This document shows positions 51,101 to 60,936 of a stretch of 64,000 bases of DNA, one piece after another. Both the position numbers and the translations under genes were made by a program. A model generated the notes under the pieces. The model was not told the DNA's origin. It was given only the letters and a program-made list of their open reading frames with translations, and made no database searches. Each line of letters begins with the position of its first letter. The stretch's first letter is position 1. Source of the stretch: Schizophyllum amplum (Eukaryota; Basidiomycota; Agaricomycetes; Agaricales; Schizophyllaceae); contig VDMD01000011.1 of assembly GCA_007026445.1 (NCBI GenBank), positions 62,001 through 126,000 on the forward strand, read 5' to 3'.

Positions 51101-54100
51101 ATGCGGGCCACGCTTTGCTGTCTGGCGTTCGCTCTTTTGTCGACGGTCGTCGCCCAACAGTCATCCTCTGGGTTTACGCCCCTTTGGGTCCCTCTGGCCG
51201 AGCGGACACCCCATTTCAATGCCTGGAAAAGGAGCACCGCGACGGACTGGGCAGTGTCGCCCTTCAACACAATGGTGCGCGTCGATCTGAAGCTCGTTGA
51301 CTTCATCCTGACCAGAAGCAGGGTCATATCCTGGCATGGACCGGCTATGTGAAAGTCGACGATGTGATCTACACATTCAATGGCGTCGTCTTCGATGGTG
51401 CGAATTTCAACGCGACGGCCTCGCAGGTGTGGCGCGTAACGCCAACGCGGACGATACAAACATCGCAAGCGGGCCCTGTGCAAATCACAGCAACATGGAC
51501 GAGTCCAATCGAGGTGCGTACACAAGACTACTCCTCCTTACGCCGGCCTCTGACCTCCCTGCAGCCAGAAGATCTCGTCAAGCAGTCCATGCCGTTCGTG
51601 TACTTTTCCATGAAGGCGGCCTCAACCGATGGCTCCTCCCACTCCGTCCAATTCTACTCCGACGTCAGCGCCGAGTGGCTGTCCAACGACCTCACTACTA
51701 TCGTCGAATGGGACACGACCACGACCGCAAACTCCATCTACCACAAAGCCAGCCCGCAGGATCCCCAGCCGATGGTAGAGGAGAGCGGCCTCGCGCAGGA
51801 CGGCACGCTCTACTACGGTGTGGCTAAGGTACGTTCACTCTGCTGGCCGTTTGATACGGGGCTCAGAATGCATTCCCAGTCTTCCGCAGTTACGTGGCAG
51901 ACAGGCGAGGCGGACGACATGCGCGGCCAGTTTAATGCAACGCACAATCTCAAGAACGCCGTGGATACTGATTCGCGCGCCATCAACGACCGGTGGCCCG
52001 TGTTCGCCCTCTCTTGGGACATGGGCGATGTCTCCAGCGATGAGGAGGAGGCTGTGTTCGCGCTCGGCTTTGCCCGCCGGCCTGTCATCGAGTACGACGC
52101 GGGCGACGCCACCCAGGAACGCTACCCTTACTTCTTGACGGAGTACTCAAATGCGGACGATGCTGTACGTGTACTGATGACCTCGGTCGCGAAGATTATG
52201 CTGACACCAAACGCCAGTTTGAAGCCTTCATCGCTGATTACGATGATGCGACCAAGCGTGCGGATGCCCTTGACTCGAAGATCATGGACGCGGCAGGTTC
52301 CGTGTCCTCCGACTACGCCGACCTGGTAGCTTTGGGCGCGCGCCAGACTCTTGCTGGTGTGGAGTGGACCACGACCGACGATAATGACACGGACGACGTG
52401 CTGGCATTCATGCGACAATCAGGCGATTCACAGTACGTGTCAACTATCTCTTTCCACCTCGATCACCACTTACCTCGTTTCGCAGACGCACCAACGCCGT
52501 GGAGACGCTGTACGCCGCCTGGCCTGCATTCTTGTATCTCAACGCAACCTGGGGGCAGTATCTCCTCGAACCCCTCCTGAGGTTCGAGTCCTCGACGGCG
52601 TATACCAAGGACTACCCCGCGCCTGATCTGGGTGAGTTTCGTCTTGAATGCCAGACTCTCGCCATCTTGACTCACTGACGTCGGAATCGACAGGCTCGTC
52701 TTATCCCGTCGCAGATGGCAACAAGGCGCCCGCTCAATCCCTAGCCATCGAAGCGGCCGGCGATATGCTGATCATGGCCTATGCGCAAGCGCAGATCTCC
52801 GGCAGCGGATACCTGATCAACAAATACGTGGGTTTATCTCTCCTTCGCTCATACGGACTCAGTGTTGAACATTTCCTTATGTGGTTCAGTACGACAGCTT
52901 CAAGAAGTGGGCGGACTACCTCGTGCAGAATGCGCAGAGTCCGGCGAGCTCGCAGTGAGTCTTGTCTTGTTTATAAGGTGCGCGTGGCGTGGGACTGAAC
53001 CATCTTCAGGAAGCTACCGAATGGCGTGAGCGGCGAGGACAACGCCAACCTTGCGCTCAAGGGAATCATGGGTATCCGAGCGATGGCGGGCATCTCAGAT
53101 GCGCTGGGCAAGTCGGATGACTCCAAGTCGTACTCGGTTAGTGTTGGCTTTCAGTGCTACCTCTTCCTCCCCCATCGTCCTCAATCTTGTCTCACAACAA
53201 CCTCGTCTCGCCTCGTTCTCGCCCACTCACACATCTTCTTGCAGAACACTTCATCGTCGTATATGAGCTCGTGGGCGGACAACATTGCGGGTGGCGTCAA
53301 TGCGGCGGACGGCATGATGTACAATCTCTATGCGGACAAGCTGATGCAGACGAAGCTTATACCGGATGCGGTATGTTTCATTGCCCTCGAACTACGATGA
53401 GCGCCTCGGCTCACAAGCTCTTACAGGCGTATGAAACCATCAGCTCCTCCGAGACCTACTCAACCTACGGCTCCTCCTTCGACGGCTCGTCAACTATAGC
53501 ACGGTCTGGTGGGTGTTTTCGAATTCTCTATATTTCTACATCTTTGCTGACGAACCCGTGTGTACTCCAGATTACATGTTGTTCGCCGCCGCGTCCGCGC
53601 CCGATAGCTCCATAAGGGATGTAATGGTGGGGACCGTATGGGCCAGGACGTCCAACACCTCCGTCGGCGGCGCGTTCCCGAGCGCGTACGACGATAACTC
53701 GGGCGCCTTCGAGAGTGGCTCCGCCAGCCCCGCGCAGGGCGCGATGTTTGCCCTTCTGGCTCTTAAGTGAGTTGTCTACCCTTCCTCGTCGTACGACATG
53801 CCATGCTAACCCACCCTTCCCAGCCTCACCACCACCACCATCACTGTGCCCGCCGGCTCATCTTCGTCCTCGGGTGGCTCCTCCGGCGACAGCAGCAGCA
53901 AATCCCACACCCCCGTGGGCGCCATCGCCGGCGGCGTCGTCGGCGGTGTCGCCGTCATCGCTCTCGGTGGCGCGCTCGTCTGGTTCATGCTCCGCCGGCG
54001 CCGCGTGCACCAGCAGTCGAACGGCACATACGACATCTCGGAGACGGGCTACGAGGCGAAGCCGTACAACCCATACGCGGATGGACAGCCGGGCGAGACC

Positions 54101-54730
54101 GCGCCCCTTTCCCCCGGAGGCAGCACGCTGTATACGCCCGGGGGAAGCGCGGTGTACGTGAACGGGGCGTCGTATATGGACGGCGCGCACGCGGCGCCGT
54201 ACACGCCCTATGCGGACGGAACGGAGGGCGCGCGGACGAGCTGGGTGGTGCCTGCGGGTGCTGCTGTGGGCGCTATGGGGGCTGCGAGTGTTGGGGCGCC
54301 GGGCGTCGCACTCCCGCCGGCGAAGGCGCTGTCGGGCGCGCCCGCGCCGAGTCCGCGTCCGTTCGCGAGCGCGATGGAGGAGAAGCGGAAGCTGCAGCAG
54401 GCGCATGGCAGTGCGCTGTCGTATGGGAGTAACGGGAGTGGGGTGCTCGCTCGGGGTGCGCAGAGCGGGCCGTCGCAGGCGAGCTCGGATGCTACGTCGA
54501 GTTCGGGGGTGCGGTCGAGCTCGGGGGTGCGGTCGAGCTCGGGGGGATTGAACTTGCGGTCGGAGGGGGATGGGGCGGGTGCGCTGGGGCAAGATGTACC
54601 TGGGGCTGCGGCGGTGAGCCCGCCGGAGACGCACGAGTTGCGCGCGGAGGTGGAGAATCTGAGGAGGGAGATGGAGGTGTTGAGGACGCAGACGATTTTG
54701 GATGCGCCGCCGGAGTATCGGGATGCATAG
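51101..54730 (+). CDS. GtaA-like glutaminase family protein 1 (DUF5127/DUF4965), membrane-anchored
   Basis: Thirteen exons (51101-51274, 51316-51513, 51565-51828, 51880-52164, 52218-52432, 52486-52631, 52694-52827, 52890-52954, 53010-53136, 53245-53370, 53427-53508, 53571-53766, 53824-54730) give 972 aa. A signal peptide (MRATLCCLAFALLSTVVA) leads into FTPLWVPLAERTPHFNAW and HILAWTGYVKVDDVIYTFNG, the GtaA N-terminal region. ADALDSKIMDAAGSVSSDYA and LVALGARQTLAGVEW follow, then NLALKGIMGIRAMAGISDAL, which belong to the DUF4965 helical domain of fungal extracellular glutaminases. After a Ser/Thr stalk comes one membrane helix (about 702-727), an RRRR stop-transfer motif and a 245-residue cytosolic tail. 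The tail ends in a short coiled coil (ELRAEVENLRREMEVLR) and a terminal PPEY. Secreted relatives hydrolyse glutamine; activity of this anchored form is infer­red. Confidence 0.85.
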
Positions 54731-56077: not shown

Positions 56078-59000
56078 ATGGGCGCCTGCATATCCTCCTC
56101 GGGAGGTATCGAGGTGTCGGACGCGGACAAGGCCCTGCACAGGGAGGCGGAGAAGCAGCTGAAGGAGGTACGTTGCCTGGCCACTTCTCGCGGACTCGGC
56201 TGACCAAGTTCCAGGCCAAGGTCAAGTTGCAGCACCAGGTCAAGGTGGGTGGAGAGAAGAAAAGCTATTCAGCGACTTTGCTGACACGCAGCAGGTTTTG
56301 CTACTGGGCTCAGGAGACTCGGGCAAGTCGACGATCCTCAAGGTGCGTTCCCCAGCGCCTCTCTTGTCCCCCTCGCTCACTTTCGGCTTTCTCGTCCCTA
56401 GCAAATGCGCCTCATCCACAAGCTACCCTTCTCCGCCCAAGAAACGGAGTCTTACCGCCAACTCGTCTTCGACAACCTCACGCGCGGGCTCAAGTACGTG
56501 CTCGACGCAATGGACGACATGGAGCTTCAGGTCCTGGACGAGCACCTCCCCTACATCGACCTCGTCGAGAACGCGCGAGATCTGCGGGACGGCGAGGCCT
56601 TCCCCGAGCACTTCTACGAGCCGCTCAAGGCCCTCTGGGCGGACCCCGCCGTGCAGCACGCCTGGGAGCGCGGGAACGAGGCCGCGCTACCAGAAAAGTA
56701 CGTCCGTCTCATGACCCGCCCCCGCTCTCTCCCCTCTCTTATCACCCCCACACAGCCTGACCTACTTCTTCGCCTCCCTCGACCGCCTCTTCGACCCCGC
56801 CTACGTGCCCACCGAGCAAGATATCATCCAATGCCGCGCGCGCACCATTGGCATTACCGAGACTACGTTCTCCCTCAGGGATCACGAAATGCTCATGGTC
56901 GATGTGGGCGGGCAAAAGAGCGAGCGCCGGAAGTGGATACACTGCTTCCAGGACGTCACAAGTATCTTGTTCCTCGTGAGCTTGAGCGGGTATGATCAGT
57001 GTCTGGTGGAGGATAAGGACGCGGTGAGTGAAATCGGCTTTTTTATTCTATCTTATTTGTTTAGTTTGCTGTGTTCTTCCTTATTCTTTTTTCTGTTCTC
57101 CTTTGTTTTGTATCGGGATGTCAGACGGCGTCGCTTGTGTCTCTCTTTCCGCTCTTCAGAATATGTCGGACTGACGAGCTACCCGTAGAATCAAATGCAA
57201 GACGCGATGACGATATGGGACTCGATATGTCACTCGCAGTGGTTCAAACAGACGTCCATCGTAAGTTTTTCTGGACTATCTTTTTTTTCGATGACTGCAT
57301 TTCAGCCGTGGCTTGTGCTGCTGGCAGGTCGGGCGCGGTAGATGCTGTCGGAAGCTCCGCCGAGCTTGTAGCGGTGCCGGCCGCTGCTTGCACTGCTGGC
57401 ACTTCTGATATGACACATGGTGTCGCCATAACTCTATTTGGGTTGCGTCTCGCCATAACTCTCGATCCCACCACATCTCTTGCCCCCACTGCAGCTCTCG
57501 ATCTCGCTGTGTGACTTCGCTGACATCCACCTCCCTCTCTAGATCCTGTTCTTGAACAAGAACGACCTCTTCCAGCGCAAAATCCCACACTCCGACATCA
57601 AAAACTTTTTCCCAGTGCGTTTTATTTCTTTTCTTTTCTTGCACTTCCTTTCTCTTGTTATTCTTCCTTCGATTTCTTTGGCAATCTTCGATTCCTTTTG
57701 CAACCTTCGATACCTTTCGCGATCTCCGATTCCTTTCACAATCTCCGATTCCTTTCGCAACCTTCGATTCCTTTCGCAACCTTCGATTCCTTTCGCAACC
57801 TTCGATTCCTTTCGCAACCTTCGATACCTTTCGCAGCCTTCGATACCTTTCGCAACCTTCTCCCATTCCTTTGTTGCTTCTCCCATTTCTTCGTTTTTTC
57901 TTTGTTTGCGGTCCTTTCGTTCATGGCCCTTTCGTTCATGTTTCCTCCGTTCATGGTTCCTCTGTTCATGATCCTCCTGTGCATGGTCCTTCTGTTCATT
58001 GATCCTTCCGCTCATTCGCCGCGTCCCCCATCCCTCATCACGTCGCTTGCCCGACGATGCACCGGTCTATGAGCTCATCACGTATACGCATCTTTCTCGC
58101 CTGTTGACACCAACCGAGCCTGTTGACATCATCTTTGCTTGTTGGGCACGTTGAAGCGCATTGAACCTCTTATTTGGTTTACATCTTTTTGTGCTCGTTG
58201 GCATCTTTCCTTGCTTGCTCGACATCTTCCGTGCCCTCCGGTCCTTTCGCTTTCCTTGACGTGCTCCTTGCCCAATGACATTATCCTTGCTTGCCGACAT
58301 GATGTTTGCCTGCCGACATTTTCAATGCCCATGATTGTACTCCCTCCCGTCTCCACCAATGGTGTCCTCCCCCAATCTCTGCACCTCATCAACCTCAACA
58401 CCAAACTTACCACCCGCCCGCAGGATTTTGACGGCGAACCCGGGGACGTCCGTGCCGGCCGCGACTATTTTAAGAAGCGGTTCGCCAAGCTGGCGCAGAA
58501 GGCCGGCCGGAATAAGGAGCGGGAGATCTACATACAGTGAGTGGTCCTTCCGTCTCGAATGGGTGGTCTTTCCGTTTTGTATGAGGAGTATCGGGCTGTT
58601 ATGAGGGGTATTCGTCTGGTATGCTGGGTGGTGGGTGTAGCGGCGAGAGAACCGACGGAGCGGGGTGGAGCAGGGGGCGGTTGTGTGGCACTGTTTGGCT
58701 TTGTGGGCGACTTGGGGTCACGTGCACGTGGGTGGTGGTTTGGCTGCATGACTTCTCGGACGCGCAAGTCACCCGCTCGACAGGGCGTTGTCTCGCATTC
58801 ATAGCCCTCCTGTCAATGCTTACATTACCCCTTCGACGTTGACGTGCTTTACCCGCGTCACGGCTTTACCCCCTTCTGATACTCCGCTCCTGCTAACATT
58901 ACCCTCAACGCTCGCCCGACACGTATTTACTCACCACCCTCCTAGCATAACAACAGCCACCGATACAGCAATGTTACGAGTGGTCATGGCCGCGGTCGAA

Positions 59001-59257
59001 GGTGCGTTCTTCCTTCCCTCGCTTTCGCCGGATCGTAACGCTGACTGCCTCCCTTTCCCACAATCTAGAGTGAGTCTTCCTTCCCTTTGTCTGCTTTTGT
59101 TTGTTCCCCCTTCTCCTTTCGGCGTGCGCCTTGTTTCCTCCTTTCCCCCGGTGCTCTGCTCTGCTGTTGGCTTCGTGGCGTCGGACGCGCGCTGAAACCC
59201 CTTCGCCCACATAGCATCGTCTTGCGCTCCAATCTGGAGGTCGCGGCGCTGATGTAG
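56078..59257 (+). CDS. heterotrimeric G-protein alpha subunit
   Basis: Exons 56078-56167, 56215-56244, 56295-56342, 56402-56697, 56756-57023, 57189-57260, 57543-57614, 58424-58536, 58946-59001, a predicted single nucleotide at 59069, and 59215-59257 give 362 aa. MGACISSSG allows N-myristoylation at Gly2 and palmitoylation at Cys4. Nucleotide motifs: P-loop LLLGSGDSGKST (Asp replaces the usual Glu), switch I RARTIGITET with the catalytic Arg about 182, MVDVGGQKSERRKWIHCF with Gln about 208, FLNKNDLF, and ITTATDT where most G-alphas have TCAT. The C-terminal helix ends NLEVAALM without the Cys used by pertussis toxin. It couples seven-helix receptors to cAMP or MAPK signalling. The subfamily looks like a divergent basidiomycete one. 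Confidence 0.9.
57665..57862 (+). repeat. 19-bp minisatellite inside G-alpha intron 7, about ten units
   Basis: CTTCGATTCCTTTCGCAAC repeats head to tail with few changes. It is followed at about 57905-58005 by a second array of TTCGTTCATGGTCC-like units. Together they make this intron 809 nt, against the usual 50 in this window. Confidence 0.9.
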
Positions 59258-60936
59258 TCGCGCTACTCAGGCCCGCTGCCCGCGCCCTTGCCCATGCACA
59301 CCATTCCCACCCATCCTATGTCCGCGCACACTACACCCTCTCCTGACACCCCCCTCCATCTGTCTCAGCACATATATGTTTCCCGTTCTTTGCATTCCTA
59401 CCTTATTTTATCGCTGTCTTGGGAACAACCGGCTGAACGTGCATGTCTTCCGCCGCCTACTCCGCCCTGATCGTGACGCAACTCCGTGTTCCGTGTCATG
59501 CTCGCTAAACAAACATGCAACACCCGCCGATCACCCAATGGTACTCGGTCGATCTTCTGGTGCTCCGCACGCTCGCACGGACATCCTCCTCCGACGCGAA
59601 CACTCCGCGCCGATGAACGACGATCGCCAAAACTGTCGCACGAACGTCTGTCTAATGGCCGGTCACCTGCGTTCGCCTCCGTGACCGGATCCGTCTTTCG
59701 CGCCGCCAGCTCGATCATCAGTTCGAACGTGAGTGGCCACCGTGGGTGTCAGTAGTTGAATGGCGTGGCTCACGCCTTGTTGTCGTCAGATTCGAGCGAT
59801 CATGCTATGAGGCAGAGCTTGTGGAAGAAGCGCCGGGCCATCAGAGCGGTTTGGTGGGACGGAGGTCGGGATCATCATGCTGGATAGATCGTGGGAGGGC
59901 TGGCGAAATTTTGCCTCGGCCAGGCAGTCCTAGACTCCGCGCATCTCATAACGGCCCAGGGTGGCACGCGTGCTTTCGTCGGCAATGCAGCAGCGTATCA
60001 TACGGCTACCGCACCCATCATCCGTGCACATTCTCCGCCATCGGTTCTCGAATCATCTCCCACTTCTGACCTCCGTCCGCACGCACCGTCTACTCGCCTC
60101 TGCATACGCACTTCATATACATCTCCACCTCACATAGCCTTCGTCGCACTGCATCACCATACTCCCTTCCGACCACGCACCATTCGCATCGAGTGTTACT
60201 TCGTCCGTCGCATATGCGTACATATCACGTCCATTTTCTCATCCGGGGCCCTTCGTCTGTGCTTACTCTTTTTGTCTATAACCGGCCCCGTGTCTACCCC
60301 AACGGCCCTAGAGGTCGAACTCACGCATCGCGAGCCCGGCTGGCGTGTCTTTATCATTATTGGTTTGCAGTTCATTTACGCTACACTACGTATACACTTT
60401 CACATTCGGGCGTGTAATGCTATTCGTGTGAGACATGAATCCCAGTTATTTAGGATGAGATTTCGACGTGAGGTCGACAGATCGCTAGTCAAACTTTCAT
60501 GAACAGTAGTCCGTACCCAGTCGACCATGACCGGTCGCCTTAGCCTCTCAGGCTCGACTGCCCGCTGTATCATAAGCCAGCGCATCACCATAAATCGCTG
60601 CAGCGCTTCGCCTCCATCGCGCTCGAGAGGTTAACACTGCGTCCTAGCCGGCTGACCACGCCACCGGTCGGAGCTCCCTGGTCATCTAAGATTGTCGTCA
60701 TTGTTTTCTGAGTTACGCAACCCAATCCCAAAGGATCACTGATGGACCACTGGCAAAGTGAGGATATCAGGAGAAGATGAGGGAATGCGTAGGTCGTACA
60801 ATCCAGCTAGCGGAGGTGAGGCGATACAATGCATGTAAAATAAGTAAGGTAGGAGGTCCGACACGGACGAGTTGGGGCAAGGCGAGCCGACCCGGCGAGG
60901 AAGACAGAAAAGATGGTAGGTAATCCCCCAAGCTCA
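59258..60936. other. intergenic between G-alpha and gtaA-like 2, no gene recognised
   Basis: 1.7 kb between the two 3' ends. Frames at 59890-60500 are open but have no family resemblance and no supporting splice pattern. Confidence 0.45.

Follow-up and report, generated by a model that had tools for sequence, protein, structure and literature searches.

Exons of a single nucleotide represent the lower limit of splicing, and three reports describe them from two genes of plants and from a P450 family of Fusarium (PMC4674806, PMC8831610, PMC12940212). Such an exon has been described in APC11 of Arabidopsis (PMC4674806) and, for plants, in both APC11 and VPS55 (PMC8831610); the one in the Fusarium P450 gene CYP621A is claimed by its authors to be the first in a fungal gene (PMC12940212). 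A single-base exon has also been recorded in the mitochondrial cox1 gene of a placozoan (PMC5436844). The first-pass annotation of the DNA discussed here had called one-nucleotide exons very rare and named plant APC11 as the known case. To this case, plant VPS55 (PMC8831610) and Fusarium CYP621A (PMC12940212) have to be added.

Alternative ends of a G-alpha protein are known from the vertebrate gene GNAO, which has mutually exclusive pairs of last exons, the exon pair encoding regions required in receptor coupling (PMC5896119). In Flammulina filiformis, four G-alpha genes with products of 339-355 residues have been reported (PMC9030616). For G-alpha genes of fungi, the titles and abstract openings listed from the open-licence literature gave neither a one-nucleotide exon nor alternative last exons, and microexon terms gave no match in PMC11590231. 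The gene described below belongs to Schizophyllum amplum, and its analysis leads to the prediction, made with high confidence, that one A, at position 59069, is spliced as a one-nucleotide exon that completes an Asp codon and joins the G-alpha body to either of two tails.

The G-alpha gene and its predicted one-nucleotide exon

The gene lies on the forward strand of the window, by which is meant the whole 64,000-nt stretch of DNA that was analysed. Its predicted product is a heterotrimeric G-alpha subunit, as judged from the whole-length PF00503 domain and the nucleotide-binding motifs. In a profile search with the corrected protein as query, PF00503 covers the sequence nearly whole (profile positions 4-333 of 333, 392 bits). 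The protein contains GSGDSGKS, DVGGQ, NKND and TTATDT, which we take to be the G-alpha nucleotide-binding motifs, and MGAC, presumably a lipid-anchored start. Its best relatives of solved structure are G-alpha-q chains, and in these matches AAVKDTILQLNL lines up with AAVEDIVLRSNL; the query carried two extra Q, one where exons 2 and 3 meet and one where exons 8 and 9 meet. The translation of the joined exons 1-9 shows no difference from P0001, the S. amplum protein at NCBI, as far as AAVE, and the complete P0001 (349 residues) is identical to a window model from which 59002-59068 have been removed. The model with the one-base exon and the first of the two tails, tail a, has 362 aa. The parts of the gene as far as this tail are as follows.

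56078-56167, 56215-56244, 56295-56342 and 56402-56697, + strand: G-alpha exons 1-4, matching P0001
56756-57023, 57189-57260, 57543-57614 and 58424-58536, + strand: G-alpha exons 5-8, matching P0001
58946-59001, + strand: exon 9, ending GAA-G (phase 1), from sequence and translation
59002-59068, + strand: predicted intron of 67 nt, donor GTGCGT, acceptor CTAG; exactly these bases are removed in the NCBI model
59069, + strand: predicted one-nucleotide exon A, the middle base of GAC (Asp), from sequence, frame and the Asp of homologues
59070-59214, + strand: 145-nt intron predicted between the microexon and tail a, with GTGAGT as donor and CATAG as acceptor, from sequence
59215-59257, + strand: tail a exon (phase 2), IVLRSNLEVAALM and stop, from scan and translation

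Introns in the 3' part of the gene measure 165 to 809 nt and far exceed those of the 5' part in length, and the 809-nt intron (57615-58423) holds a 19-nt tandem repeat, CCTTCGATTCCTTTCGCAA, present in 10.3 copies with 89% matches at 57666-57860. Upstream on the + strand, at 53560-54730, another gene seems by eye to encode a stretch rich in Ser and Gly, a single membrane-spanning segment and a long tail, its end lying near 54730.

The letters on which the first-pass annotation had built its case for a microexon are all present. Exon 9 ends GTC GAA G at 59001 and is followed by the donor GTGCGT (59002-59007), and the last exon reads C ATC GTC TTG from 59215, with a stop codon ending at 59257. 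Direct joining of 59001 to 59215 breaks the frame, giving AAVE-ASSCAPIWRSRR*. Between these exons, CACAATCTAG at 59059-59068 precedes an A at 59069 and GTGAGT at 59070-59075, that is, a full acceptor, one base and a full donor. With A59069 inserted the frame is restored by the codon GAC, and the translation becomes AAVE-D-IVLRSNLEVAALM*. That this base is spliced as an exon is a prediction. A stwintron, which would leave no base between the two introns, was considered and rejected; it yields AAVE-ASSCAPIWRSRR*, out of frame.

The intron at 59002-59068 contains a branch-like CTGAC, whose A lies about 25 nt from the intron end, and the intron at 59070-59214 has no CTNAY site, only a CTGAA about 20 nt from its end. 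Both donors flanking the microexon fit GT[AG]NGT, as do the nine other donors of the gene, including one inside the second tail (tail b, described below). The microexon acceptor is also used in the NCBI model of the gene itself, which removes exactly 59002-59068; P0001 then ends AAVEE* because the next donor is read through as GAG TGA (59069-59073).

A script that listed in-frame routes to tail a returned 36 single-intron routes (GT-AG, GC-AG or AT-AC) and 5 two-intron routes (starting from 59001), and among these 41 listed routes the one-base exon alone gives Asp with no residue gained or lost. The first-pass annotation had named a donor or acceptor that restores the frame without 59069 as an argument against the microexon. 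Such a donor does exist near exon 9, the only one that keeps AAVE being GTTCTT at 59006, but it adds a residue and departs from the donor shape. Use of this weak site, with no microexon and the joint E-G-A-IVLR, would keep the frame with tail a and with tail b, and 8 NCBI models share the form of this joint, G plus one extra residue. GTTCTT is nevertheless off the GT[AG]NGT shape of the gene's other donors, and no Asp would result, against Asp in 72/72 transcript-like homologues among the matches listed (see below), which makes this route scarcely credible.

The string [CT]AG-N-GT[AG]NGT, a pattern picked after the microexon hit was known, occurred in 0.06% of 20,000 dinucleotide shuffles of 59008-59208, and [CT]AG-A-GT[AG]NGT in 0 of 20,000 such shuffles. 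In the whole window, on both strands, there are 8 strings of the former kind, 2 of them with N = A, the microexon included.

A candidate second ending

The microexon and tail a of the first-pass annotation are borne out by the letters and the frame, whereas a second tail at 59710-59810 had been overlooked. It was found by scanning the window with homologue tails, and the match begins 453 bases behind tail a. Its predicted parts are as follows.

59070-59709, + strand: 640-nt intron predicted for the alternative route to tail b, which bypasses the tail a exon, with CGCCGCCAG as acceptor, inferred
59710-59728, + strand: tail b first exon (phase 2), CTCGATCATCAGTTCGAAC, encoding SIISSN, from scan and score
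59729-59789, + strand: 61-nt intron predicted to split tail b, with GTGAGT as donor and TCAG as acceptor, from scan and score
59790-59810, + strand: tail b last exon, ATTCGAGCGATCATGCTATGA, encoding IRAIML and stop, from score and translation (compare IRDIML in P0156)

With a score built from 16 homologue tails, tail b reaches 44.8. When the 2 kb in question were shuffled 400 times, the best value was 18.9 (0/400 as high), and 60 other 2-kb stretches of the window, on both strands, gave 22.7 at most. The last G of exon 9, the single A and tail b together read D-SIISSN-IRAIML*; without A59069 tail b is out of frame and the translation is AAVE-ARSSVRTFERSCY. Tail b provides 12 residues after the Asp, compared with 13 for tail a, and is itself split by an intron, a split that a Lactarius model (P0156, ending GTIRDIML) hints may be shared with that genus.

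Two predicted endings are thus encoded in the locus, tail a (59215-59257) and tail b (59710-59810), both of phase 2. Because both start in phase 2 and exon 9 ends in phase 1, each tail needs one added base, and thus two separate exons would need the same single A. No CTNAY site occurs within 50 nt of the tail b acceptor, the nearest being 55 nt from the intron end.

Homologues, public models and the distribution of tails

Three protein searches, represented by the best 120 of 6376, the best 120 of 202 and the best 120 of 217 hits, yielded 166 different proteins, of which 94 are NCBI records and 72 are transcript-like. The latter come from jgi, lgn and ena, on contigs roughly 1 to 3 kb long in which the whole frame is uninterrupted. 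The 72 presumably derive from spliced transcripts; they were taken as such because the contigs are short and the frame is whole, although in S. amplum some ten introns interrupt this gene. Asp and a tail were present in each of the three queries. Those of the 202-hit and 217-hit searches, which were aimed at the tail, were the corrected protein; that of the 6376-hit search had the two extra Q mentioned above, and this search was not aimed at the tail, Asp plus tail being a small part of its query. Junction classes in both groups of proteins were sorted by tail length.

All 72 transcript-like proteins, among the best 120 listed per search, show Asp followed by a tail, which agrees with the earlier claim that Asp is the family residue at this junction. 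Among these matches, 41 carry a tail a (of the IVLRSNLEVAALI kind) and 31 a tail b (of the AIISKNIRTIML kind). In the 6376-hit search considered by itself (best 120), Asp plus tail is found in 51/51 transcript-like proteins, 32 with tail a and 19 with tail b.

In the NCBI records, Asp followed by either tail is found in 0/93 readable models among the matches listed. The count leaves aside P0111, whose junction is unreadable, and includes P0017, a protein found in nr only, which ends AAVEE*. This ending occurs in 27/93 models, one of them S. amplum P0001 and the other 26 from other genes; the corresponding species named in the 6376-hit search include members of Agaricales, Polyporales and Russulales as well as Punctularia. 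In 12/93 models G replaces D and the sequence then continues in register, and 8/93 have G and one extra residue, as from a donor forced four bases downstream; these two numbers include the transfer by hand of P0133 from the former class to the latter. A further 8/93 read S-IVLR, as a read-through of the tail a acceptor (AG|C ATC) would yield, and in another 32/93 the first letter is G, which is what reading through GAAG|GT would produce. The remaining models begin with V (2), A (3) or D (1, P0143, with unrelated letters after the D). The 27 AAVEE* ends fit a read-through of AG|A|GTRA. Taken together, the errors of the NCBI models would fit an exon end GAA-G, an acceptor followed by A-GTRA and a phase-2 tail exon; the three parts never appear together in one NCBI model.

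These records bear on two rival explanations. The second intron might be kept, so that the natural protein ends AAVEE* as in the public record and the tails are relics or minor forms. P0001 is identical to such a kept-intron model, and so is the ending of the 27/93 readable NCBI models among the matches listed. AAVEE* is, however, the end of 0/72 transcript-like homologues among those matches, the letters of both tails are conserved, and the other G-alpha loci with a visible end have the full 13 residues, all of which renders a kept intron very improbable. Alternatively, a base at the end of exon 9 may have been lost by sequencing error, or the gene may be decaying, with a single normal intron at 59002-59214. 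One A added at the end of exon 9 would indeed also give GAC, with either tail. Against this stand the 26 AAVEE* models from other genes, which an error in one assembly does not explain and which an acceptor followed by A-GTRA does. Moreover, the remaining frame is intact, and AG-A-GTGAGT within the intron (GAAGGTGCGT as sequenced) would be mere chance; this explanation deserves hardly any weight. A one-nucleotide exon at 59069 remains the preferred reading, and the public C-terminus of this G-alpha subtype appears to be wrong in all 93 readable NCBI models among the matches listed. This matters for the tagging, modelling and expression of the protein. AlphaFold models of two homologues are of low confidence at the tails, where pLDDT falls below 50 at 341-358 in P0004 (tail a) and at 355-361 in P0007 (tail b).

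Ten other translated G-alpha stretches of the genome were inspected by eye. In eight of them an acidic residue is followed by 13 residues and a stop, so that the 13 residues after the acidic position, described earlier as standard for the family, are the same in 8/10; two of the eight (L022 and L023) are near-identical copies. Of the other two stretches, L013 stops short of the stop codon and L015 does not include the tail. No codon split at the acidic position is seen in the ten where the site is visible, and in L014, L016 and L018 the acidic codon seems to be preceded, at a distance of a few codons, by the end of an intron. An overly strict motif search of the other G-alpha loci for the microexon arrangement returned the window only, besides one spurious stretch in L016. 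As a separate observation, the genome contains 51 PF00503 matches, several with odd or long open frames, and the G-alpha family seems enlarged; the hits at L022/L023 and at L018/L019 (contigs C25/C2 and C252/C18) match, so that these loci look duplicated, perhaps as separately assembled haplotypes.

Whether the two tails belong to one gene or to two was approached with a tree of 69 transcript-like bodies, built with the tails excluded and without the short P0131, P0141 and P0145. Four labels (P0022, P0124, P0125 and P0137) were set to tail b, three by hand and the fourth by length. The tail type changes 17 times on this tree, at least 7 of the changes being forced by well-supported branches. 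The labels are somewhat clustered, as the shuffled mean is 22.8 changes and 6 and 9 of 500 shuffles were as low. Two paralogous clades, one for each tail, would predict about one change, and this idea finds no support in the tree.

Pairs of proteins with a common body and unlike tails point in the same direction. The bodies of P0092 (tail b, with Asp) and of P0072, a Suillus fuscotomentosus model (tail a, with a forced G-Y), are 99.1% identical over 348 aa. Between the bodies of P0045 (tail a, with Asp) and P0156 there is no difference over 337 aa; the latter is a Lactarius tabidus model whose end, GTIRDIML, resembles the last exon of tail b. Each pair consists of one transcript-like protein and one genome model, and the two pairs suggest that both tails may come from one gene. 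Over 291 aa there is also no difference between P0128 (tail a, with Asp) and P0147, a Leucoagaricus gongylophorus model that has lost its end. Of the transcript-like pairs with unlike tails, P0148/P0126 (96.4% identity over 390 aa) is the closest among the matches listed. Annotated proteins with unlike tails are also present in Armillaria solidipes (P0069, P0076) and Mycena olivaceomarginata (P0133, P0162), and these may be separate copies.

The latter two species fit a further explanation, in which the one-nucleotide exon is real and feeds tail a only, the tail b of relatives comes from a second gene and 59710-59810 is unused. The tail b acceptor without a near branch-like site agrees with it as well, and tail b of S. 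amplum is predicted from DNA, not from transcripts. The tail b match is nonetheless well above shuffles and controls, the tail types are intermixed on the tree, and the pairs from Suillus and Lactarius combine a common body with unlike tails. In addition, the gene end is single-copy: a DNA search of its own genome (49.65 Mb, 309 contigs) gave only the self-match, with no twin of the gene end and no second allele to compare. A microexon serving tail a only is considered unlikely, and the reading in which A59069 leads to both tails is retained.

Proposed splicing and comparison with known systems

In the proposed mechanism, the two introns flanking A59069 would be removed one after the other. 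Short fungal introns are usually recognised each by itself, and each of the flanking introns would probably be recognised on its own. AG stands at the end of exon 9 as well as at the end of the first intron, so that AGA|GTGAGT (-3 to +6) is the sequence of the second donor both before and after removal of the first intron, and therefore the order of removal need not matter. The choice of acceptor would come next, either that of tail a, by removal of the 145-nt intron, or that of tail b, by removal of the 640-nt intron; if the second intron were kept, the protein would end AAVEE*. Two proteins would result, unlike at the end of the C-terminal helix. In animal G-alpha proteins this helix contacts the receptor, and by analogy the choice of tail would influence which receptor couples.

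A broader proposal, to which about even odds are given, is that the one-letter exon acts as a fixed splice hub across mushroom-forming fungi and that the choice of tail is a regulated receptor-coupling switch in development or mating, missed by gene finders. If the prediction is true, a one-nucleotide exon occurs in a central signalling gene and, to go by the protein records, in many mushroom-forming fungi, where it would be the common entry to two alternative receptor-contact ends. Some mushrooms have good laboratory genetics, which makes both splicing and coupling testable.

Compared with the exons of APC11, VPS55 and CYP621A, the locus has the same build, CTAG|A|GTGAGT at 59065-59075 within what appears to be a single intron, and A59069 is likewise needed for the frame and gives a conserved residue. 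The plant exons are single bases between full splice sites, A in APC11 as well (PMC4674806, PMC8831610), and are conserved across land plants and absent from reference annotation (PMC4674806, PMC8831610). They differ from the present case in belonging to plants and in having been shown by cDNA (PMC4674806, PMC8831610). Furthermore, the alternatives of VPS55 consist of the base being in or out, whereas here there would be two exons to choose from after the base (PMC8831610).

The Fusarium exon is also a single base between AG and GT that restores the frame in a conserved motif (PMC12940212), public models miss the base, as they seem to do here, and the exon is found across CYP621A orthologues (PMC12940212). 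On the other hand, CYP621A is an ascomycete P450 gene, its base is G and transcript reads are presented for it (PMC12940212); the accessible part of that report does not describe alternative tails (PMC12940212).

In stwintrons of the [D1,2] type, two introns share one fungal site and are removed sequentially, as proposed here (PMC12403724), but one intron splits the donor of the other with no exon base between, and in the present gene one base would be left (PMC12403724). GNAO resembles the locus in that a single G-alpha gene encodes two alternative versions of the receptor-contact end (PMC5896119), and differs in that it is an animal gene whose last two exons, 7 and 8, are swapped, with no microexon mentioned in the part available (PMC5896119). 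What the S. amplum locus would add to these systems is a one-nucleotide exon in mushroom fungi, predicted to form the fixed junction for two receptor-contact tails.
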